Source: Lentisphaerae bacterium RIFOXYC12_FULL_60_16
GTDB taxonomy: Bacteria; Verrucomicrobiota; Kiritimatiellia; UBA8416; YA12-FULL-60-10
Direction: 5' to 3'
Assembly: GCA_001803315.1 (NCBI GenBank)
Contig: MHBQ01000071.1
Coordinates: forward strand, 2,218 to 38,053
DNA: 35,836 nucleotides
Shown here piece after piece: positions 4,895-35,836 of the stretch. The position numbers were made by a program, and so were the translations under genes. The first letter of the stretch is position 1. Each line of letters starts with the position of its first letter. The notes under the pieces are model-generated. The model searched no databases and was not told the DNA's origin. It saw only the letters and a list, made by a program, of their open reading frames with translations.

Positions 4895-6259
4895 ATGAAT
4901 AGAGCCAGTTCTGCTGACTTAAAACAATGGATTGGGCAAGCGGGCCGACTTCCCTTGGTGTTGCGTGGAGCCCGTCAGGTAGGCAAAACCTGGCTCGTTC
5001 GGCAACTGGCAAAAGAACTTGACCTTCGTTTGATCGAAATCAACTTCGAACGGGCTGGGACCGAGGTTACCGGCATCTTCAAGACCAAAGATCCGGTCGT
5101 GATCCTCCGCGCACTCGAACTGCTGGCGGGTCACAAAATCGATCCTCCGCGTTCCCTGCTGTTCCTCGACGAGATACAAGCTATGCCGCAGGTTCTTGCC
5201 AATCTGCGCTGGTTCGCGGAGGAACTACCGCAACTGCCGGTCATCGCCGCGGGCTCGCTGCTGGATTTCGTATTGGCCGACCACGCCTTCAGCATGCCGG
5301 TGGGACGGATCGCCTATCTTCATCTGGAGCCCATGAATTTCGAGGAATTCCTCCAGGCGGTTGGAGAAGAGGAACTGCTCAAGGAAGTCGTGCAATGGAC
5401 GTTCGACGCCCCATTCCAGGAGGTTGCGCATGTCCGTCTGTCCGAGTGTTATCGCGACTTCCTGATCGTCGGCGGCATGCCGAAAGTCGCGCAATGCTGG
5501 ATCGACCACCGGTCGTTGCTGGAGTGCGCTGAACTCCAGCAGTCTCTGCTCGGCACGTACCGCGACGATTTCGCAAAGTACTCGCGGCGTCTTCCGGTCG
5601 AACGTATGGGACGAGTCATGGAATCCATCCCCAGAATGCTGGGTCAAACTTTCAAATACTCCCGTGTGGCGGACGGCGAAAGGAGCACCGCCATACGAGA
5701 AGCGCTGGAACTGCTCTGCCGCGCCCGTCTGGCCACTCGCGTGCAGGCCACCACGGGAATGGGCATTCCCTTGGGGGGAGATATCCGGGAACGGGTTTTC
5801 AAAGTCATTTTCCTCGATTCCGGGCTGGTCTGCGCGGCCCTGGGACTGACGTTGCAGCGGGTCTCGGACTTGGCCGACCTGGTCCTGGTGAACGAGGGAG
5901 GGTTGGCCGAACAATCGGTGGGACAGGTTCTCCGCGCCGCTCTCCCCCATTTTGCCGAGCGCGCCCTTTACTTTTGGAGCAGTGATCGGAAAGGCGCCGT
6001 GGCCGAAGTGGACTACCTGGTCCAACACGGATCCCGGATCATCCCCGTCGAGGTCAAGGCGGGAACGACGGGAACCCTCAAGTCGTTGCACCAATTCATG
6101 GCGATTCGGCGCCTGGATCTGGCGGTGCGGATCAACGCCGACAGGCCCTCCGCCGCCATGATCAACGTCAAAACGACGGAAGGTGTGCCGGTTCTGTACC
6201 GCTTGCTGTCCGTCCCATTCTATTTAGCCGGCCAGTTGCATCGCCTTCTCGATCGGTAA
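4895..6259 (+). CDS. AAA_14/DUF4143 family ATPase with PD-(D/E)XK-like C terminus
   Basis: A 454-residue protein. The N-terminal AAA ATPase domain has Walker A GARQVGKT (residues 25-32) and Walker B LLFLDEIQ (88-95). The DUF4143 C-terminal region contains D373 in AEVDYLV and E386-V-K388 in PVEVKAG, the spacing expected of a PD-(D/E)XK nuclease-like core. These ATPases are common in anaerobes and archaea and their role is poorly known; links to mobile DNA or stress have been proposed. The ATG at 4895 has no ribosome site and lies downstream of an AT-rich stretch, suggesting an imported gene with weak or leaderless initiation. A second protein of the same class is encoded at 17830-19059. Confidence 0.9.
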   Translation: MNRASSADLKQWIGQAGRLPLVLRGARQVGKTWLVRQLAKELDLRLIEINFERAGTEVTGIFKTKDPVVILRALELLAGHKIDPPRSLLFLDEIQAMPQVLANLRWFAEELPQLPVIAAGSLLDFVLADHAFSMPVGRIAYLHLEPMNFEEFLQAVGEEELLKEVVQWTFDAPFQEVAHVRLSECYRDFLIVGGMPKVAQCWIDHRSLLECAELQQSLLGTYRDDFAKYSRRLPVERMGRVMESIPRMLGQTFKYSRVADGERSTAIREALELLCRARLATRVQATTGMGIPLGGDIRERVFKVIFLDSGLVCAALGLTLQRVSDLADLVLVNEGGLAEQSVGQVLRAALPHFAERALYFWSSDRKGAVAEVDYLVQHGSRIIPVEVKAGTTGTLKSLHQFMAIRRLDLAVRINADRPSAAMINVKTTEGVPVLYRLLSVPFYLAGQLHRLLDR

Positions 6260-6271
6260 CTGACATTCTCT

Positions 6272-6350
6272 AACCCAGGGACAGACAAACTATCACCCCC
6301 ACCGGCTGAACAACACCCCTCCCGTCCCTGATAGGTAATTCCTGGACCGG
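6272..6350. repeat. GGGACAGAC-type dispersed repeat copy A (fullest)
   Basis: CCCAGGGACAGACAAACTAT opens the copy and GTCCCTGATAGGTAATTCCTGG closes it; the outer parts are imperfect inverted repeats (CCAGG...CCTGG and GGGAC...GTCCC). Copies at 3571 and 4431 share its order of blocks, including CGGCTG and CCCTCCCGTCCC. It lies just after the AAA_14 ATPase gene. Confidence 0.6.
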
Positions 6351-6395
6351 CGATTGCCCGTCCGTTACCGAAAACCCGATTCCCCGGCACCTTGC

Positions 6396-6773
6396 ATGCC
6401 GGGTTCACTCCACAAGGTCCATACGTTGCCCTCCGGAACAAACAACTATGCTGAGCGTCGCCGACAAAGGATGGCCGAGCTTGAGGAACGTCGCCGGCAA
6501 ATGGGGGAGGCTCCTACAATAATACCGGAAGAATTGAAGAAGCAGTTGGAATCGTACCAGTTGGAATTGATTCGGGCAGGAGGAGCGAAGGGGCCGCCAT
6601 TGCCATTGCCTATGCCTTTGACCCAGGAGATGGATGACCGGTTGGTGGAGGAAGGGGTGTTGGCCCCGGCGGGAGATGAAACTCCGATGAAAGCCGTTCC
6701 TTATGTCCCTAAAACCGGTTTGAACGAACCACCGCAAGCCGACATGGAGACCACTCTCCCGCTGGAGGAATGA
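6396..6773 (+). CDS. small hypothetical protein, charged N-terminal helix and proline-rich tail
   Basis: About 125 residues from the ATG at 6396, or 139 from a TTG at 6354. Neither start has a clear ribosome site, and an internal ATG at 6471 (MAELEERRRQMGE) is also possible. The middle is a charged, probably helical segment (AERRRQRMAELEERRRQ), followed by a second helix EELKKQLESYQLELIRAGG and then proline-rich sequence (GPPLPLPMPL). It ends with acidic residues. There is no signal peptide or membrane segment, and no family is recognised. The frame reads naturally, but codon bias was not computed. It follows the dispersed repeat after the ATPase gene. Confidence 0.4.
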   Translation: MPGSLHKVHTLPSGTNNYAERRRQRMAELEERRRQMGEAPTIIPEELKKQLESYQLELIRAGGAKGPPLPLPMPLTQEMDDRLVEEGVLAPAGDETPMKAVPYVPKTGLNEPPQADMETTLPLEE

Positions 6774-6835
6774 GTCGGAAGAGGAGGTTCACAATCCTGT
6801 TGTGCCCACCCTCTTCCCGTATACCGATGGAAAAC

Positions 6836-6871
6836 CAGCGGGACCGCTCGTAGAGCGGGGCTGCATTTTTT
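6836..6871 (+). terminator. hairpin with downstream T run
   Basis: A perfect stem CCGCTC-GTA-GAGCGG at 6844-6858 is extended by an outer CAGC/GCTG pairing. It is followed by six T residues at 6866-6871. It fits a factor-independent terminator for the genes to its left. A related sequence (GGGACTGCTCGTAGCGCGG) occurs at 19110-19128 without the T run, so it may also be a dispersed element. Confidence 0.5.
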
Positions 6872-6990
6872 CCGGCTGTAACCGGTGGCGGTTAAGCGTT
6901 GACTTGATGGGGCCCTGCGAGCATGTTGGATTCGTCCGGGTGGCGTCCTGAAAGGCCGGTGTGTGAAAGAACCGGAGTGACATCTTCCCT

Positions 6991-7740
6991 ATGCAGACAT
7001 TGCGCATCCTCACCGTCAATATCCATAAGGGGTTCTCCCTGGGGAATCGCCATTTCGTGCTGCACCGGTTGCGTGACGCGATCCGTTCAACCCATGCCGA
7101 TGTGGTTTTCCTGCAGGAGGTGGTCGGTCAGAATACCCGCAAGGCGGCCCGCCACCATGACTGGCCGGATCAGGCACAACACGAATACCTGGCCGATTCC
7201 GTCTGGGCCCACCATGCCTATGGCCAGAACGCCCTGTATCCGCACGGCCATCACGGGAATGCCATCCTGTCCCGGTTTCCCATTGTTCATTCCGAACAGA
7301 TCGATACCACCACCAACCGGATGGAACAGCGCGGGTTCCTGTATGGTGCGGTGGACCTGCCCGATGGCGGGGACCCGCTGCATTGCCTGTGCATTCACCT
7401 GGGACTTTTCGCCGCGTCGCGTAAAAAACAGCTGCGCCTGCATGCCGACTTCATCGATCGGCGCATCCCGCACGATGCGCCGATGATCATGGCCGGCGAT
7501 TTCAACGACTGGCGCGGGGACGGGGTGGACGAGTTCGCCCGTCGGCTCAACCTCAAGGATGCGGCCACGGAAATCTCGGGACGGAAGGCACGGACTTTTC
7601 CGGCGCACCTGCCGCTGCTGCCGCTCGACCGTATTTACATCCGCGGATTGTCGGCCCGGCAATGCACCACGCATTACCGGGGGGCGTGGAAGCAACTATC
7701 CGATCATGCAGCCCTGCTCGTGGAAAGTGAACGAACCTGA
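6991..7740 (+). CDS. endonuclease/exonuclease/phosphatase (EEP) family protein, YbhP-like
   Basis: A 249-residue metal-dependent phosphodiesterase. Family motifs are in order: N10 and H12 in LTVNIHKG, the conserved E in VVFLQEV (near residue 43), GDFND in IMAGDFNDW, and the terminal SDHAAL with the catalytic His. EEP enzymes hydrolyse DNA, RNA, phospholipids or phosphorylated sugars, so the substrate is open. The stop is followed after one base by the cardiolipin synthase start, so the two are co-translated or nearly so. The same order occurs in E. coli as ybhP-clsB, which suggests a role in membrane phospholipid metabolism. No signal peptide is seen. A GGAG lies 13 bases before the ATG, further than usual. 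Confidence 0.88.
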   Translation: MQTLRILTVNIHKGFSLGNRHFVLHRLRDAIRSTHADVVFLQEVVGQNTRKAARHHDWPDQAQHEYLADSVWAHHAYGQNALYPHGHHGNAILSRFPIVHSEQIDTTTNRMEQRGFLYGAVDLPDGGDPLHCLCIHLGLFAASRKKQLRLHADFIDRRIPHDAPMIMAGDFNDWRGDGVDEFARRLNLKDAATEISGRKARTFPAHLPLLPLDRIYIRGLSARQCTTHYRGAWKQLSDHAALLVESERT

Positions 7741-7741
7741 C

Positions 7742-9112
7742 ATGACCAAGCTCTACTGGCTGATATTCAATATCCTCCCGATGATCGGGTTCTTCCTCGC
7801 GGTAATGCTGCTGGTCTACCAGAACCGCACCCAGCGATCGCCTTCCAGCACGGTGGCCTGGCTGCTGGCCATCCTGCTGGTCCCGTATGTCGGTGTGCCG
7901 GCCTATATCATCCTGGGCGGCCGGAAAATGAGACGCATGACCCGCATCAAGGGCTTCCTGACCGCTGACGCAGGCAGGACGGTGGAACCGTCGGCGGAGC
8001 AGGGGGTTCGCAGCATCTTCCCCTTGCGCAGCGGAAATGAGGCGTCGCTGCTGGCGACGGGCGAGCAAGCCTATGCGGCATTGATGGATCTTATCGAGCA
8101 GGCCCGGACGAGCATTGATGTCACCACCTTCTACCTGGGGAACGATAAGACCGGGAATTCCGTGCTGGCGGCCCTTGCGCGCAAGGCCGGGCAGGGTGTG
8201 CGGGTGCGGCTGCTGCTGGATGCGCTGGGATCATTCCGCACCTCGCGGAAGCAGGTGGCCCCCTTGCTGGCGAACGGGGGGAGCCTGGCTTATTTCATGC
8301 CGATGATGCACCTTCCATTCCGGGGGCGCGCGAACCTGCGCAACCACCGCAAGATGGTCATCGTGGACCGGGCCACCGCCTTGTTCGGCGGCATGAACAT
8401 CGCGCAGGAATACATGGGCCCAACCGTCGACAAACGCCGTTGGTATGACATGTCGATGATTGTGAAGGGACCGGTGGTGGCGGACCTGCACCAGGTATTC
8501 TGTTCGGACTGGCAGTTCGCCGCCGGGCAATCCACGGTACCGGAAGCCGGGCCCGGCCCGATAGCCGGCAATGCCGCCACGGCCTTGCAACTGGTGCCCA
8601 GTGGACCGGATGTTGACGGCGATCCGCTCTACGAGAGCATCCTCACGGCCCTGTTTACCGCCCGTCAACGCGTCTGGATCACAACGCCGTATTTCATCCC
8701 CGACGAGATGTTGCTCAAGGCGATCGGCATGGCGGCCAAGCGCGGCGTCGATGTGCGGATCGTGGTGCCGGAGGTTTCGAACCACCGGCTGGCCGACCTG
8801 GTACGGAGAAGCTATCTCCGGCAAATGCACGAAAGCGGGGCGGTGGTCTGCCAGTTCCAGCCCGGGGTGATGCACGGCAAGGTGATCCTGGTGGATACAA
8901 GCCTGTGCATCGTGGGTTCGATGAACATGGATGTCCGCAGTTTCTTTCTCAACTACGAGATTGCGATGTTCATCTATGATACGCGGTTGCTGAATGAACT
9001 GGAGCGGTGGATTGACGGACTCATCAGCCAGTCGTTCACGGGGATCCGGAAAACCAACGTGATGATTGAATTCCTCGAGGGGGTTGTGCGTCTGCTGTCG
9101 CCGTTGCTGTAG
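7742..9112 (+). CDS. cardiolipin synthase (phospholipase D family)
   Basis: A 456-residue membrane enzyme making cardiolipin from phosphatidylglycerol or a related donor. Residues 5-26 and 37-58 form two N-terminal transmembrane helices, typical of ClsA-type and Gram-positive synthases. The two catalytic HKD motifs are intact: H202-R-K204-x4-D209 and H378-G-K380-x4-D385, the second followed by the characteristic GSMNMD. The ATG at 7742 is one base after the stop of the EEP gene. A longer frame from 7559 overlaps that gene and lacks the transmembrane start. The combination of two TM helices (as in ClsA) with a YbhP-like neighbour (as in ClsB) is slightly unusual. Confidence 0.95.
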   Translation: MTKLYWLIFNILPMIGFFLAVMLLVYQNRTQRSPSSTVAWLLAILLVPYVGVPAYIILGGRKMRRMTRIKGFLTADAGRTVEPSAEQGVRSIFPLRSGNEASLLATGEQAYAALMDLIEQARTSIDVTTFYLGNDKTGNSVLAALARKAGQGVRVRLLLDALGSFRTSRKQVAPLLANGGSLAYFMPMMHLPFRGRANLRNHRKMVIVDRATALFGGMNIAQEYMGPTVDKRRWYDMSMIVKGPVVADLHQVFCSDWQFAAGQSTVPEAGPGPIAGNAATALQLVPSGPDVDGDPLYESILTALFTARQRVWITTPYFIPDEMLLKAIGMAAKRGVDVRIVVPEVSNHRLADLVRRSYLRQMHESGAVVCQFQPGVMHGKVILVDTSLCIVGSMNMDVRSFFLNYEIAMFIYDTRLLNELERWIDGLISQSFTGIRKTNVMIEFLEGVVRLLSPLL

Positions 9113-28928: not shown

Positions 28929-29015
28929 CCGCCACGCCATGACGCACGGAAGATGATAACAAACCGGTTGCGCGAAACGACACGGAAGTAGTTAACACCC
29001 ATGAACAAAACATTG

Positions 29016-30374
29016 TCAACCCAGTGTTTTGCCGAGTTTCTGGGTGATGGAGGATACCTGGCCGCGCAGGCGAACATCAACGTCCATGCGGCTTTCGATG
29101 GATTTGTAGGCGTGTAAAACCGTCGCGTGGGTCTTGCTGAATGCGTTGGCAATATCCGGAAGCGAGGCGGAGGTCAGGCGACGGCAGAGGAACATGGCAA
29201 CCTGCCGGGGCAGGGCCACGGCGCGCTGGCGGTGTTTGCTGGACATATCGGCCAGGCGGACGTCGTAATGCTCGGCCACGGCCCGCTGGATGCCGTCGAA
29301 GGTCAGGTCCACATGGCGTTCCTTCTCCAGGGTGTCGCGCAGGAGGTAGCGCAGCTTTTCCATGGTGAGCGGCTGGCCGGTCAGCGACGTGAACGAAATG
29401 GTCCGCACGAGGGCGCCTTCCAGCGCCCGGATGTTGGAGTGGATGTTTTCGGCCAGGAAGTTGAGTATTTCATCCGGCAGGGTGGTGCGGGCCTGAGCCT
29501 GCTTGTAGCGCAGGATGGCGATGCGTGTTTCCAGGTCGGGGGATTCCAGTTCGGTTACCAGTCCCCATTCGAAGCGGGAGACGAGACGCTGTTCCAGCCC
29601 CGCGATTTCACGGGCGGGCCGGTCGCTGGTCATCACGATCTGCTTGTGGGCGTCATACAGGGCGTTGAAGGTGTGGAAGAATTCCTCCTGCAACTGATTC
29701 TTGTTGGCGAGGAAATGGATATCGTCGATCAGGAGGAGGTCGACCCCGCGGTATTTTTTACGGAACTGGGCGATGGTCCGTTTGGTCAGGGCCTCGATGT
29801 ATTCGTTCATCAGCGCTTCGGATGAAACATACGAGATCGTGGCCCGGGTGGTTTTCTGGACATGGTGCCCGATGGCCTGCATGAGATGGGTTTTGCCGAG
29901 GCCGGTGCCGCCATAGATGAACAGCGGGTTGTAGGCGCGGGCCGGCGCCTGGGCCACGGCCAGCGAGGCGGCGTGGGCGAAACTGTTGGATGGGCCCACG
30001 ATGAATTCGTCGAAGGTGAACTTGACGTTAAGGGGTGTTTCCGTGGCGGACCGCCGCGCGAAGCGGTCGCGCAGGGCGCGGGACTTGACCGGCTCGGCAG
30101 GTTCCGGCTGCGTGTCCGGCGCCGCGGAGCGGGGATTGACCCGGAACTGGATGCCGACCTTTTCCGGCTGGACGCTTTGCAGGGCCTGCTGGATGACGGT
30201 CAGGTAATTTTCCTCGAGCCAGTCCTGGTAGAAATCGTTGTCCACATCCAGCAGGAGCTGACCGTCTTTCAGCGCGACCGGCTGGATCACGCCGATCCAG
30301 CGGGCGAAGGTGTCAGGATGCATAACCGTCTTGAGGTGATCCGTTGCTCGCGTCCAAAGGTCCTGGGCTGTCAT
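29016..30374 (-). CDS. dnaA: chromosomal replication initiator DnaA
   Basis: A 452-residue initiator. The start at 30374 gives MTAQDLWTRATDHLKTVMHP, the usual domain I opening; an ATG 18 bases upstream (30392) adds MSGCAL. Domain II is short (about residues 80-115). Domain III has FDEFIVGPSNSFAHAA, Walker A GGTGLGKT (155-162) and Walker B LLLIDDIHFL. Domain IV has the DnaA signature (PRQVAMFLCRRLT and KTHATVLHAYKSIE), where the DnaA-box reading H-x-T-V-x-H is retained. The gene precedes dnaN. Possible DnaA boxes lie on both sides, which suggests autoregulation and an adjacent origin. No unusual substitution was seen. Confidence 0.98.
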   Translation of the reverse strand: MTAQDLWTRATDHLKTVMHPDTFARWIGVIQPVALKDGQLLLDVDNDFYQDWLEENYLTVIQQALQSVQPEKVGIQFRVNPRSAAPDTQPEPAEPVKSRALRDRFARRSATETPLNVKFTFDEFIVGPSNSFAHAASLAVAQAPARAYNPLFIYGGTGLGKTHLMQAIGHHVQKTTRATISYVSSEALMNEYIEALTKRTIAQFRKKYRGVDLLLIDDIHFLANKNQLQEEFFHTFNALYDAHKQIVMTSDRPAREIAGLEQRLVSRFEWGLVTELESPDLETRIAILRYKQAQARTTLPDEILNFLAENIHSNIRALEGALVRTISFTSLTGQPLTMEKLRYLLRDTLEKERHVDLTFDGIQRAVAEHYDVRLADMSSKHRQRAVALPRQVAMFLCRRLTSASLPDIANAFSKTHATVLHAYKSIESRMDVDVRLRGQVSSITQKLGKTLG

Positions 30375-30651
30375 CAAGGCACATCCACTCATGGTAAAAT
30401 TCATTTTATGTGATTCAGCCGGGGGCGCTGGAACCACATTTGAAATCGGCGCCCATTCCACGCGATGACGCGCGGTAAAACAAGGAAAAAAAATCGACAC
30501 CTATCAACAGGTTATCAACAGGTGGTGCAAATGCCTCCGGAATCGGTATTTCGGACATGGATGGGCGGTTTTCCAAAGAAAACCGTTGAGTTGACGCTCA
30601 TACAAGCCTAACATCCGGCGACGTAAACCACGTGATGGCAGGGTGATGAAC
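30375..30651. other. candidate origin part 2: region upstream of dnaA with tandem TATCAACAGG repeats
   Basis: CTATCAACAGG (30501-30511) and TTATCAACAGG (30512-30522) are adjacent 11-bp direct repeats, the second including the DnaA-box-like TTATCAACA also found in the dnaA-dnaN spacer. A purine-rich run AAGGAAAAAAAATC (about 30483-30495) lies next to them. They are 127 bases upstream of the dnaA start and could serve as an origin part or as autoregulatory sites. The gap holds no gene. Confidence 0.45.
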
Positions 30652-31797
30652 ATGCGGAAAAGCACACCAATATTGACGGGTTCTGAAGGAATTATGCTGG
30701 CTGGAACCGGGGATTCGACACCGGATCTTGAATACGCGACCGGCTTTCGTGCGGTCGATCCGGTGGTCTGCCTGTGCCGCGGATCCGAACGCTGGCTGGT
30801 GGTTCCGGAAATGGAATATGGCCGGGCGCAGGAAGCCGCACCGTCGCGCGGCGTGACGGTGCTGACGCCGGGCATGTTGAAGTTGACGCGTGACCAGCGG
30901 CGGCGGCTGGGCGGTTGGGCGTTGGGCCTGGTCCGGCATGCCGGGCTGCGCCGCGTGGTGGTGCCGGGCCTGTTTCCGCACGGGGTGGCAGAGGCGCTTC
31001 AGCAGCGCGGGATCCGGGTGCGGGTGGCGCGTGAAAGCCTGTTCCCTGAACGGGCCGTCAAGCGGCCGGAGGAAATCCGGCATATAACCGTTGCCCAGCA
31101 GGCCGCGGTGATCGCCATGCGCGGCGCCATCGCGATGATTGCCGGGGCGGAACCGGACCGGATCGGGGTCTTGCGTTATGACGGACAGCGTCTCACGGCG
31201 GAACGGGTTCGCCGGCGGATCCAGCAGATCCTGCTCGACCACGATTGCGAAAGCCGGTCCATCATCGTGGCGCCGGGCCGGCAGGCGGCGGATCCGCATG
31301 TGACCGGCACCGGCCCGTTGCATGCCCACGAGGCGGTCGTGATCGATATTTTCCCGCGGCACCAGACCAGCGGTTACTGGGGTGACCTGACCCGTACGGT
31401 GGCGCGCGGCGTGGCTCCGGCGGCGCTCCGGCGCATGTACCAGGCCGTCCGGGCCGCGCAGACGCTGGCCCTGCAGGAAATCCGTCCGGGCAAGTCCTGG
31501 AAAGCCCCGCACCGGGCGGCGGTGCAGGCGTTTGAATCGTGGGGGTATGAAACCCATTGGGAGACCCGTCCCCCCCGCGGGTTCATACACGGGACCGGAC
31601 ATGGGGTGGGCCTGGCCGTGCATGAAGCCCCCTCGCTGGGATTCACGGACGGGCGGCTGCGGGCCGGGCATGTGGTGACGGTGGAACCCGGGTTGTACGA
31701 CCCTGAAATCGGCGGGATCCGCATTGAAGACACCGTGGTGGTCACCGCCACCGGCTGGCGGTACCTGGCGCCCTGTGAAAAACGGTTCGAGCTGTAA
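30652..31797 (+). CDS. M24 family metallopeptidase (Xaa-Pro aminopeptidase-like)
   Basis: A 381-residue pita-bread-fold peptidase. The ATG at 30652 has AGG nine bases upstream and is preferred over the ATG at 30646. The metal ligands are visible: D in VVIDIFPRH, D in WGDLTRTV, H in GTGHGVGLAVHE, E in TVEPGLYDPE and E in GIRIEDTVVV. The N-terminal creatinase-like domain carries LEYATGF. Members of this family cut the bond before proline or act on other N-terminal residues. It is divergent from dnaA and is not expected to be functionally tied to it. All five metal ligands are retained, so activity is likely. Confidence 0.93.
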   Translation: MRKSTPILTGSEGIMLAGTGDSTPDLEYATGFRAVDPVVCLCRGSERWLVVPEMEYGRAQEAAPSRGVTVLTPGMLKLTRDQRRRLGGWALGLVRHAGLRRVVVPGLFPHGVAEALQQRGIRVRVARESLFPERAVKRPEEIRHITVAQQAAVIAMRGAIAMIAGAEPDRIGVLRYDGQRLTAERVRRRIQQILLDHDCESRSIIVAPGRQAADPHVTGTGPLHAHEAVVIDIFPRHQTSGYWGDLTRTVARGVAPAALRRMYQAVRAAQTLALQEIRPGKSWKAPHRAAVQAFESWGYETHWETRPPRGFIHGTGHGVGLAVHEAPSLGFTDGRLRAGHVVTVEPGLYDPEIGGIRIEDTVVVTATGWRYLAPCEKRFEL

Positions 31798-31878
31798 ACG
31801 GCAACAATAAACCGGCAGACCGGTTCGTTATACTGGCATGAAAGCCGGAAGGATTATCGGCCGGCGGGAGGAATCATC

Positions 31879-32493
31879 ATGAAACGTTGGATGGGGATAC
31901 TGATGACCAGCCTGATGACGGTTTCCGTGCTCGCGCAGGAGCCCGGCATGCGGGAGCGGCCGGAAGGCGGCGGGAAGCGTCCGTCGGAATCCATGCGCCG
32001 GGGAATGGGCGGGCCAGGTGGGGGGGGCGGCATGATGGAACGGGTGTTGGACAATCCGGAACTGGCGGCCCGGCTGGGCGTGGACAAGGAAGCGCTCCAG
32101 GCGGTACGTGAAAAAATCCATGCAGCCCGCCTGAAACAGGTGGACCTGCAGGCCGAACTGGAGAAGGCAGCCATGGAACAGGCCCGCCTGATGAGCGACG
32201 ATGTGGCTGGCGAAGACGCCATCCTTGATTCGGTGGAAAAGGCCGGCCGTATCCGGACGGAAATGGCCAAGCAGCGCATCCGCACCATGCTGATGATGCG
32301 GGACATCCTGACGCCGGAACAGCGGGAAAAAATCCGGACCTGGATGCTGGAGAACCGGCGGGACCGGGAAGGTGAACCCGGGCAGGGACCGCGCGAGACC
32401 CTGCGTGAACGCATGCGGGAAAAGCGGAAAGACCACCAGGAAGCCGGACCTGATGCCGGCCCGGAAACCCCGCCGGAAGTCCCCGGCGAGTAG
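31879..32493 (+). CDS. Spy/CpxP-like periplasmic protein (metal-resistance/chaperone family)
   Basis: A 204-residue protein. The ATG at 31879 follows GGGAGG. Residues 1-20 are a signal peptide (MKRWMGILMTSLMTVSVLAQ). The next part is rich in Arg, Met and Gly (SMRRGMGGPGGGGGMMERV). A helical core follows, with LTPEQREKIRTWM matching the LTxxQ motif of Spy/CpxP and Metal_resist proteins. The C-terminal 40 residues are charged (MREKRKDHQE) and end in PETPPEVPGE. Such proteins sense or buffer envelope stress or metals and act as periplasmic chaperones. The Met-rich glycine segment could bind copper, but this is not established. It lies 80 bp after the M24 gene. Confidence 0.7.
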   Translation: MKRWMGILMTSLMTVSVLAQEPGMRERPEGGGKRPSESMRRGMGGPGGGGGMMERVLDNPELAARLGVDKEALQAVREKIHAARLKQVDLQAELEKAAMEQARLMSDDVAGEDAILDSVEKAGRIRTEMAKQRIRTMLMMRDILTPEQREKIRTWMLENRRDREGEPGQGPRETLRERMREKRKDHQEAGPDAGPETPPEVPGE

Positions 32494-32550
32494 GGTTATG
32501 CACGGCGCTGAAGCCTGCCCTGCGTGCCGCGCCGTCTGGTCCGACTGGAG

Positions 32551-32570
32551 CCGGCCCGACCTCGGGCCGG
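32551..32570. terminator. 9-bp stem hairpin between convergent genes
   Basis: CCGGCCCGA-CC-TCGGGCCGG is a perfect GC-rich stem of 9 bp with a 2-base loop, between the Spy-like stop (32493) and the GH4 stop (32582). There is no T run on either side, so termination by this hairpin alone is uncertain. It could be a bidirectional structure protecting both mRNA ends. Confidence 0.4.
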
Positions 32571-32581
32571 TCCGGGCGTCC

Positions 32582-33913
32582 TTACCGGTATTTCGGCAGG
32601 AACGAACCGTGCGCCTTGATCAGGTCATTGCACAGCGACCGCGTTTCGTCGATGGTCAACTCAGCGGCGGTATGCGGATCCATCAGGGCCGCCTGGTAGA
32701 TGCAATCCTTCTTCAGGGTCAGGGCTGCCTCGATGGCCAGCAGGTGCACGTTGATGTTGGACCGGTTGAGCGCGGCACAGGCTTCGGGCAGGTCACCCAC
32801 GTAGCAACCCTGCACCCCGTTGGTATTCACCAGGCAGGGCACCTCCACCACGGCGCGTGACGGCAGGTTCGGGATGAACCCGTTGTTGAGCACGTTGCCG
32901 CCGATTTCAATGGCCGTGTTGGTTTCCATGGCGTCCATGATGTACGACGCATATTCATGGGTGCGTTCATGCGTGAGCCGGGGATTGTTGACCAGTTCCC
33001 TGCTCATGGCCTTCCATTGCGCGATCTGGTTGATGCACCGGCGCGGATACTCATCCAGCGGGATCTTGAACTGGTCGATCAGTTCGGGGTGGTCCCGCTT
33101 GATGAACCAGGGGGTGTATTCCGACAGGTGTTCCGATGATTCCGTGATGTAGTATCCGAAATTCCGCATGATTTCCAGGCGCACCAGGTTGTAACCCGGG
33201 CCGCCGGCCCGTCCGCGGCGGACCACCTCGAGCGCGCGTTTGCGGCATTCCGGGTACAGGTCCTTCCCGTCGCCCGTGATTTCCAGCAGCCAGCCCATGT
33301 GGTTGATGCCGGCGACCTTTTGGCGGACATCCCGGTATTTTTTCTCCAGGCCGAGGGTATGCAGCAGGGATCCGGCGCAGACCTGCACGGAATGGCAGAG
33401 CCCGACGGCCTTGATGCCGGACCCGTGGAGGACACCGCCGGTCACCATCGACATCGGGTTGGTGTAGTTCAGCATCCAGGCATCCGGACAGACGGCTTCC
33501 ATGTCATGGGCGAAATCCAGCATGACCGGGATCGTCCGCAGGGCGCGGAAGATGCCGCCGATGCCCAGGGTGTCCGCGATGGTCTGCCGCAGGCCGTATC
33601 GTTTGGGGATTTCGAAATCGATGACCGTGGAGGGCTCATAGCCGCCGATCTGGATGGCATTGACCACGTACGAGGCGCCCCGCAGGGCGGCGCGGCGGTT
33701 CTTCACCCCCAGGTGGGCGGTGATCGTGGCGCGGCGCTTGTTAACATTGGCGTTGATCGTATCCAGCATCTTCTTGGATTCGCGCAGGCGTTTGCTGTCG
33801 ACGTCATACAGCGCGATCTGTGCATCCCGCAGGGAGGGGGTCAGCATCGAATCCCCGAGGACATTTTTTGCGAAAATCGTGCTGCCGGCGCCCATGAAGG
33901 TGATCTTGGCCAT
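32582..33913 (-). CDS. GH4 family glycosidase (alpha-galactosidase/alpha-glucosidase-like)
   Basis: A 443-residue NAD- and Mn-dependent glycosidase. The start ATG follows CGGGAG. The N-terminal Rossmann motif is KITFMGAGSTIFAKN, and ALYDVDSKRL follows. The TNPMSMVT segment and GLCHSVQ, with the Cys-His that binds manganese, are retained, as is GINHMGW. GH4 enzymes act by oxidation-elimination-reduction and handle alpha-galactosides, alpha-glucosides, glucuronides or phosphorylated sugars. The CHS form of the metal site is found in the MelA-like and LplD-like members, so the substrate could be a galactoside or an alpha-galacturonide. No signal peptide. A CTGAACACTTCYC motif lies 87 bases upstream. 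Confidence 0.92.
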   Translation of the reverse strand: MAKITFMGAGSTIFAKNVLGDSMLTPSLRDAQIALYDVDSKRLRESKKMLDTINANVNKRRATITAHLGVKNRRAALRGASYVVNAIQIGGYEPSTVIDFEIPKRYGLRQTIADTLGIGGIFRALRTIPVMLDFAHDMEAVCPDAWMLNYTNPMSMVTGGVLHGSGIKAVGLCHSVQVCAGSLLHTLGLEKKYRDVRQKVAGINHMGWLLEITGDGKDLYPECRKRALEVVRRGRAGGPGYNLVRLEIMRNFGYYITESSEHLSEYTPWFIKRDHPELIDQFKIPLDEYPRRCINQIAQWKAMSRELVNNPRLTHERTHEYASYIMDAMETNTAIEIGGNVLNNGFIPNLPSRAVVEVPCLVNTNGVQGCYVGDLPEACAALNRSNINVHLLAIEAALTLKKDCIYQAALMDPHTAAELTIDETRSLCNDLIKAHGSFLPKYR

Positions 33914-34171
33914 AGTTCGTGCTCCCGTTTAGGTGTGATACAAAGTCGGAACGGTAATGGAATGGCCGCGGTTTGCAAGCGTTTACACAGTGGGCGGGGC
34001 GGGGAAGTGTTCAGAAGGGAGTGGGCGTGTTGAATGTGGAACGTAGAACGTGACAAGACCAGCCACAGGAGAGAAGCATCTTGCCGTAGCCGCCGGCGCG
34101 TACCGCGCCGAAGCGTCCGCGTGAAGGCGGGTGACTGCGGATTGCGGCCGGGGGTGCGGGGGAAGCGGGCG
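33914..34171. other. 258-bp gap upstream of the GH4 gene
   Basis: The gap holds the CTGAACACTTCYC motif at 34001-34014 and GAACGTAGAACGT-like repeats nearby. GCGTACCGCGCCGAAGCGTCCGCG near 34095-34125 resembles GC-rich palindromic repeats. No gene is seen. Confidence 0.35.
34001..34014 (-). promoter_or_regulatory. CTGAACACTTCYC motif upstream of the GH4 gene
   Basis: On the minus strand CTGAACACTTCCCC is followed by GCCCCGCCC, 87 bases before the GH4 start. It matches 12489-12502 and 26175-26188. Confidence 0.35.
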
Positions 34172-34726
34172 TTAGATTATGTGTCCCCGGGGGTTCTCAC
34201 CACGAATCCTTACCGTGCTCGGCTCCCACTCTTCAGCGAGAATTTGCGCTTTTATGCCCTGTGCATCTATCTTGTCGGCAAAGCTTTTTGAGTGGGCACA
34301 GCCGCAAACCAACAATACGGGAAAATCTTTGAGGAGAGAGAGGCGTCGTACCCATTCGTACTCCCTCTTATCACGCATATGCCGAATATTCTCCGCAACA
34401 ACATGTTCAGGGTGGTCGTTGAACCAACTTTCTAATTTCACATCACCTTCGTTCTTGATTCCTAAACAAGCCTGCTCTGCGATGTCTGGCTCACAGTCCA
34501 CGTGTGCAATCCCGAGTTTGATCGCAACGCAGTCGGGCACCGTCTGAAAGATGCCCGATTTCTGACGAGCGTCCGCAGACATCTCTTCGGCCAAGGTCCG
34601 AATACCGTGGGAAAGACATTGCTCGCGTAGGTATGCTGCAAAGGCATCGCATGCTTGTTCGGCAGGAGGGAACGTCTTACACGGGCCGAACTGGTGCTTG
34701 TGGTGGATCCCAACGATAAACACTTT
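34172..34726 (-). CDS. small protein resembling EreA/ChaN/TraB-like hydrolases, unknown function
   Basis: A 184-residue protein from the ATG at 34726 (MKVFIVGIHHKHQ); upstream codons have no ribosome site. Two G-x-x-H motifs are seen: GIHH near residue 7 and GCAH in VLLVCGCAHSKSF. A conserved acidic pair lies in TLAEEMS, and RDKREYEWVRRL precedes the second G-x-x-H. This pattern, with G-x-x-H at both ends and an acidic centre, is shared by the EreA/ChaN/TraB-like superfamily of metal-using hydrolases. The length is short for this group, and no substrate can be named. Its neighbours downstream of Eco29kI and Vsr suggest it belongs to a defence or repair cluster. No signal peptide or membrane segment. 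Confidence 0.6.
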   Translation of the reverse strand, partial: KVFIVGIHHKHQFGPCKTFPPAEQACDAFAAYLREQCLSHGIRTLAEEMSADARQKSGIFQTVPDCVAIKLGIAHVDCEPDIAEQACLGIKNEGDVKLESWFNDHPEHVVAENIRHMRDKREYEWVRRLSLLKDFPVLLVCGCAHSKSFADKIDAQGIKAQILAEEWEPSTVRIRGENPRGHII

Positions 34727-34822
34727 CATCTCTGTTTCCCCCCGCTGTATGCCGATGCGCCTCCACATCAAACTACGGCGGCACACGGCGGCCTGTGCGG
34801 CGTTATGGGTTCTGGGGCTAAT

Positions 34823-35251
34823 CTACGGGGTTAGTCTCCGGGGACCCGATTGACACTTTGTGATCCTGTCCAGAAGGTCGCCGCGATTGACCCGGAGTTC
34901 GCACTCGAAAAGACGGATCACAGCCCAGCCGGTTTTCTTTAATTTCAGAGTAACTCGCTGATCTCTGGCTCGATTCTCCGCCACTTTAGCATCCCAAAAC
35001 TTTCGTTTACTCTTTGGCCGTCGGTAACATTGTGGGCAACCGTGCCAGAAACACCCATCAACAAAAATCGCCAGACGCTTCTTCTCGAAGGCGACATCTG
35101 GCGTTCCCACGATGTCTCTGGCGTTTGCCCGCCAACCACTGACACCTGCTCCGGCCAGGAACGCCCTTAGTCTGCGCTCGGTTGATCTGTTTCCTTTCGA
35201 TCTGACCTTTGACATGATGGCCGATCGAACGGATGGGCTAACGGTGTCCAT
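34823..35251 (-). CDS. vsr: very short patch repair endonuclease Vsr
   Basis: A 142-residue endonuclease that nicks next to T:G mismatches produced by deamination of 5-methylcytosine. Typical segments: IMSKVRSKGNRSTERRLR, GTPDVAFEKKRLAIFVDGCFWHGCPQC (the zinc and catalytic region), and RDQRVTLKLKKTGWAVIRLFECEL near the C terminus. The start ATG lies 3 bp after the stop of the Eco29kI-like gene, so the two are in one operon. Vsr normally travels with a cytosine-5 methyltransferase; none is in the window, and it is probably upstream beyond 35836. The internal ATG of MSKVRSKG is an alternative start. Length is normal. Confidence 0.95.
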   Translation of the reverse strand: MDTVSPSVRSAIMSKVRSKGNRSTERRLRAFLAGAGVSGWRANARDIVGTPDVAFEKKRLAIFVDGCFWHGCPQCYRRPKSKRKFWDAKVAENRARDQRVTLKLKKTGWAVIRLFECELRVNRGDLLDRITKCQSGPRRLTP

Positions 35252-35254
35252 CGT

Positions 35255-35785
35255 CTATTTGTGTTGCTCCCGATGCTTTTTGATTCCGGCCAGAACGTCC
35301 GCTTCGGTCTTGCCGGAACTGAGTTTCGCCGCCCATGGCCTGCCGGGATGCAACACGTCCCAAGGGGAGATGTTTTGGGCAGCACGCCTGCCGCCGGGAT
35401 CGTGATTGCCAAACCCATCAACCGCCAAATTCCACAGTGGACGAAACATCTCGATCAACAATGACTCACCGAGAGGAATCCAAATGTCGTCAACTGTCAG
35501 GTGCCGGCACGAAAAGTCGGTGAGGTTTAGGTTTGTGGCCTGTTCAATTGATTTGGCGTGCTCGGTCAGGCGTTTGAAAAGAACGCGCCCCGCCGGAAAA
35601 TCTAAACCAAGCCCACCTTTTCGCGCACCTTCTGGAACTGCTTTGCCCACATATATGGGGCAACGCAGGGTCCCTTTCTGGTTAAGTGCCGAAATGTCCC
35701 GATAAGCGGGGAACCCGCCAGTGTAGTAGATCGCGTATATTCCAGCGCCGGCAAAAACGTCTGGCGAATTGCGCCATATTAAATG
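35255..35785 (-). CDS. Eco29kI-family GIY-YIG restriction endonuclease, probably 5'-truncated
   Basis: The frame is open from 35785 to the stop at 35255. From the upstream side it reads NSPDVFAGAGIYAIYYTGGF, then PIYVGKAVPEGARKGG, LFKRLTEHAKSIEQATNL, DDIWIPLGESLLIEMFRPLW and DGFGNHDPGGRRA. This is the Eco29kI restriction enzyme family, which cuts CCGCGG-type sites through a GIY-YIG domain. No ATG, GTG or TTG start exists in frame before 35650, and a stop (TAA) sits at 35788-35786 inside a terminal repeat of a probable mobile element. So about 40-50 N-terminal residues seem lost. The first usable start (GTG at 35650) would remove the GIY motif. The gene may be a pseudogene, or may be read from a fused upstream start. 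Confidence 0.85.
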   Translation of the reverse strand, partial: HLIWRNSPDVFAGAGIYAIYYTGGFPAYRDISALNQKGTLRCPIYVGKAVPEGARKGGLGLDFPAGRVLFKRLTEHAKSIEQATNLNLTDFSCRHLTVDDIWIPLGESLLIEMFRPLWNLAVDGFGNHDPGGRRAAQNISPWDVLHPGRPWAAKLSSGKTEADVLAGIKKHREQHK

Positions 35786-35836
35786 TTACCGAAGGAGAGG
35801 TGAGTAAATGGGGGGTTGCGCCATAATTGATGTTAC
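35769..35836. mobile_element. end of a probable insertion sequence (IS21-like terminal repeats), runs off the window
   Basis: TTGCGCCATATTAAATGTTAC (35769-35789) and TTGCGCCATAATTGATGTTAC (35816-35836) match at 18 of 21 positions, spaced 47 bp. Repeated terminal sequences of this kind are found in IS21-family elements, but no transposase is in the window. The first repeat coincides with where the Eco29kI frame breaks, consistent with insertion into the 5' end of that gene. Confidence 0.5.

Follow-up and report, generated by a model that had tools for sequence, protein, structure and literature searches.

A mobile-element end truncates an Eco29kI-type restriction endonuclease gene beside an intact vsr

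Restriction genes are often interrupted by insertion sequences. A type II system can lose its restriction endonuclease (R) before its methyltransferase (M) without harm, whereas loss of M with R intact exposes the cell's own sites. Eco29kI is a GIY-YIG restriction endonuclease with solved structures (PDB 3mx4, 3nic and 3mx1; Pfam PF09517), whose active-site residues are given in the accessible part of PMC1952068 as Y49, Y76, R104, H108, E142 and N154. In the Eco29kI system itself R precedes M, according to the accessible part of PMC3039593, whereas M precedes R in the relatives of the gene described here. Among insertion sequences, the IS1202 family is described in the accessible part of PMC10132070 as having a single transposase in most members and 3-5 bp duplications in some. 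Elements of its ISAjo2 type are described there with ends TGT...ACA and, at each end, a second copy of part of the terminal repeat, 7-10 bp away.

We analyzed a stretch of 35,836 nucleotides (the window) from Lentisphaerae bacterium RIFOXYC12_FULL_60_16. The last base of the window is the last base of contig C71 (38,053 bases), within an assembly of 4.09 Mb in 188 contigs that is 85.75% complete. The features at this edge, with the evidence for each, are as follows.

34823..35251, minus strand: vsr, DNA mismatch endonuclease, 142 aa, intact (TIGR00632, PF03852, PDB 1cw0)
35255..35764, minus strand: 5'-truncated Eco29kI-type GIY-YIG restriction endonuclease gene, R (Pfam, PDB match, codon list, translation)
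35765 (most likely start)..35836, plus strand: left end of an insertion element, truncated where the contig stops (boundary bases; last 45 bases shared with contig C123)
35769..35789, plus strand: outer terminal repeat, holding the TAA of the R frame (21 of 21 bases equal to the left outer repeat of the complete element L107)
35816..35836, plus strand: inner terminal repeat (matching the outer repeat at 18 of 21 bases)

The R remnant opens with P-D-V-F-A-G, comprises 169 residues up to its stop codon, and has no start codon. The match to PF09517 (RE_Eco29kI) reached 208.2 bits against a cut-off of 30.8 (E 8.8e-62) and covered positions 2-162 of the 164 in the profile, the query (35785-35255) including a few element-derived residues. 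The solved Eco29kIR matched at E 1e-40, with the alignment starting at chain residue 61. The numbering of chain 3mx4 is the native numbering plus 21, as set by the active-site residues in the accessible part of PMC1952068, and this offset places the loss at about 39 native N-terminal residues. The equivalents of the six active-site residues, read off the Eco29kIR alignment, are all present in the window. Chain 3mx4 has a glutamine at the E142 position and is presumably a mutant there, while the window R has the glutamate. The retention of all six residues indicates that the break is recent, or that R has scarcely started to decay.

The preliminary description had held that the GIY motif region is in frame without a start, that this frame closes within one of two 21-bp direct repeats at the window edge, and that the N terminus expected for the family is missing; each of these observations was borne out. 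The codon list of the minus strand contains no ATG, GTG or TTG between the stop and the GIY motif. The TAA that closes the frame lies at 35788-35786, inside the outer repeat, and P-D-V-F-A-G is all that is left ahead of A-G-I-Y. The first usable start in the frame, GTG at 35650, is already past the motif. No promoter directed out of the element was found on the strand of R, the one promoter-like site of the region being on the plus strand, and a search for Rfam-type RNA families near R and vsr gave no match at the gathering threshold. The window R is a remnant of an Eco29kI-type endonuclease and not a working member, as a complete frame and the N terminus are absent. Because the start is lost and an in-frame stop stands in the repeat, R is not made as a whole protein, and we infer that it is inactive. 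The site of Eco29kI, CCGCGG, which may not be that of this enzyme, occurs 21 times in the window against 25.8 expected from its parts (control GGCGCC, 43 against 39.6); its depletion as a trace of R was dropped, since 21 against 25.8 is not telling.

The relatives of R indicate what has been lost. At least 33 residues stand ahead of the GIY motif in 76 of 80 loci by a pattern-based count, and an NPLxK-type motif is found in 75 of these 76. Of the four loci left uncounted, L044 has the N terminus and missed the GIY pattern, while L035, L058 and L060 are near contig edges; a looser test scored 74 of the 80 as full length. Room of 1300 bp or more is available at 72 loci, and at 67 of these R is immediately preceded, on its own strand, by a C5 methyltransferase gene; the exceptions are L057, L076, L088, L102 and L103, the last of which has M downstream of R on the other strand. 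Thus, M is expected beyond the element. Vsr directly follows R in 5 of the 80 loci and precedes M in 27. L025, at 72% identity the nearest relative from that search, shows the arrangement M-R-Vsr, with Vsr directly after R, and a genome of the same taxonomic order (G004) shows Vsr-M-R with an uninterrupted R.

The two 21-bp repeats at the contig end are identical at 18 of 21 positions and lie 47 bp apart; none of 100 shuffles of the last 200 window bases gave an equally good pair (best, 15 of 21). An exact copy of the final 45 window bases is present on contig C123 and continues there into the N terminus of a transposase that is itself broken off after about 40 residues. The transposase of the window element would point away from R and beyond the contig end. 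With a 389-aa relative as query, the genome of the window yielded no more than a relic of 51 residues on C123, and the interior of the transposase was not found in the assembly. On C123 (stretch L010), two neighbouring frames (338 and 345 aa) at 5096-7100, beside the relic, have by eye the look of tyrosine recombinases. A gene at 7553-8035 of the same stretch, which adjoins the relic, encodes a PIN-domain-like protein (19.6 bits, below the cut-off) and is flanked, by eye, by the short direct repeat TATTACCTAGAACGTCCCCATTCCC.

Relatives of the 41 transposase residues of C123 were found in 21 of 288 genomes of the class, G000 itself included. Three complete relatives (L105, L106 and L107) measure 1.30-1.31 kb, each with a single 389-aa transposase frame and a pair of repeats at either end, the two pairs being inverted relative to each other as terminal inverted repeats. 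The rve domain of these transposases scored 27.7-31.7 bits, just under the Pfam cut-off of 32.6. In all three, the right-end repeats directly follow the 389-aa frame, which leaves no room for istB. The preliminary description was right that a mobile-element end truncates an Eco29kI-type R, but its IS21-type assignment was not supported: it was rejected on the single rve frame and the lack of istB in 3 of 3 complete relatives, the contig ending before the interior of the window element.

At the outer boundary of the element, CGNN precedes TTGCGCC (GTGCGCC in L109) at all 12 outer ends found, 7 left and 5 right, among the 11 sequences examined; L108 and C123 yielded no outer repeat. The stretches of L105 and L106 stop exactly at the boundary CG, and by their positions and lengths these stops are contig ends. 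For the more distant relative in genome G172, the four copies examined, of 15 places, all have CG-ended termini, flanked by duplications of 4 bp in three copies (GATT, CGCT and ATAT) and of 5 bp in one (CACGG). Based on the CGNN at all outer ends and the position of the G172 duplications outside the CG, the most likely first base of the element is 35765, which precedes the first repeat by four bases.

The insertion of a mobile element into R is very probably the explanation of this locus. An element of 1.3 kb with a single DDE/rve transposase would have entered the 5' part of R in an Eco29kI-type M-R-Vsr operon. The insertion would have removed about 39 N-terminal residues of R together with the start codon, and would have placed the rest of the gene behind an in-frame stop within the element's own repeat. 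As the element is repeated in the genome, the assembly would have broken inside it, so that the half with the start of R and the C5 methyltransferase is absent from the assembly. This missing half would lie on the far side of the element, where M, if it persists, would leave the cell a methyltransferase gene along with Vsr.

A variant of the insertion reading, conceivable though on the unlikely side, has the insertion followed by an element-mediated deletion of M and the start of R, which would make Vsr a true orphan. A PF00145 methyltransferase was not found in the 4.09 Mb of the assembly, in a search whose control matched 10 of 14 named genomes. Likewise, the N terminus of R was not found elsewhere in the genome of the window, by a search that was convincing in only 2 of 4 control genomes with R relatives. 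The right ends of a related element that terminate contigs C13 and C34 were considered as places for the missing half of R; a six-frame reading of the 150 bases beside the element showed no family N terminus on either contig, and both were rejected. Since neither the R N terminus nor M was found in the rest of the assembly, that half may also have been deleted. However, the assembly, incomplete and divided into 188 contigs, lacks even the transposase interior, so these absences say little.

That the junction is an assembly chimera at the contig end, the true genome having intact R and M, is improbable. The junction does lie 72 bases from the contig end, within sequence that has further copies in the assembly, and the R remnant shows no other decay. 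Yet the outer-repeat variant of the window was found on no other contig of the assembly in a search allowing three mismatches, and the boundary coincides exactly with CGNN-TTGCGCC, just like those of 11 other element ends. Finally, a shortened and active R, made from an unusual start (GTG 35650, or ATA/ATT), would agree with the open frame and the kept active-site residues but is highly improbable, given that the GTG is past the GIY motif, that no standard start codon (ATG, GTG or TTG) stands between the stop and the motif, and that the sole promoter-like site of the region is on the other strand.

The vsr gene begins 3 bp past the stop codon of R. Its complete frame of 142 aa matched TIGR00632 at 113.3 bits (cut-off 97.85), residues 1-118 aligning to positions 2-119 of the 119 in the profile, and matched PF03852 at E 6.4e-21 and E. 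coli Vsr (PDB 1cw0) at E 1.1e-17, in agreement with the earlier claim that Vsr is intact. Downstream of vsr, a 204-aa frame (34172-34786, minus strand) matched nothing in Pfam or NCBIfam within the limits applied and may be the next gene of the vsr transcript. Partial copies of the intergenic segment 34056-34190, 78-88% identical, are present on 8 other contigs of the genome; the segment has no match in Rfam and is a dispersed repeat. The G+C content at 34000-35499 is 55-56%, below the 59-69% of the 5 kb before it (29000-33999), as would fit acquisition of the operon by horizontal transfer.

The locus offers a clear snapshot of the early decay of a restriction-modification operon, in which R is broken while its catalytic core and Vsr are unspoiled. 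The loss of R is an ordinary insertional inactivation, a common kind of gene decay, and the understanding of restriction systems and of insertion sequences is unchanged by it; what the result contributes is a correction of the IS21 label and a likely boundary for the element. No paper on this R insertion was found in the literature searched, and we make no wider claim.

The comparison with known systems is as follows. The window R shares with Eco29kI a near-whole GIY-YIG domain and the six active-site residues, and differs from it in lacking the N-terminal residues and the start. Vsr resembles the very-short-patch repair endonucleases in its TIGR00632 score above the cut-off and its alignment to E. 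coli 1cw0; unlike these, the window copy adjoins an R remnant, with no methyltransferase seen. As for the element, repeated terminal sequences are a point in common with IS21, which differs in its istA/istB pair, one 389-aa frame filling the complete relatives here. The IS481 family was rejected, as NF033577 scored 18 and 21.8 bits in two relatives against a cut-off of 224. Plasmid homologues of the transposase carry the label ISNCY in 5 of the 15 matches listed, and the L106 transposase is 37.9% identical over 94% to that of an ISNCY-annotated rve element (NZ_CP150124.1, for example); the likeness is one of transposases, and none of the 271 plasmid records with a transposase match reaches 60% identity. 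To IS1202, as described in the accessible part of PMC10132070, the element and its relatives are similar in their single transposase, doubled end repeats and, in G172, short duplications. They are set apart from the ISAjo2 type by the descriptions of the ends only: the outermost TGT and ACA of that type are absent at all 12 outer ends, which read CGNN-TTGCGCC or CGNN-GTGCGCC, and the repeats of each end start 47-57 bp apart. It is conceivable, though rather unlikely, that the element belongs to a group not yet named as a family, with a single rve transposase of about 390-420 aa, a length of 1.3-1.4 kb, CGNN-TTGC ends, repeats doubled at each terminus and target duplications of 4-5 bp.
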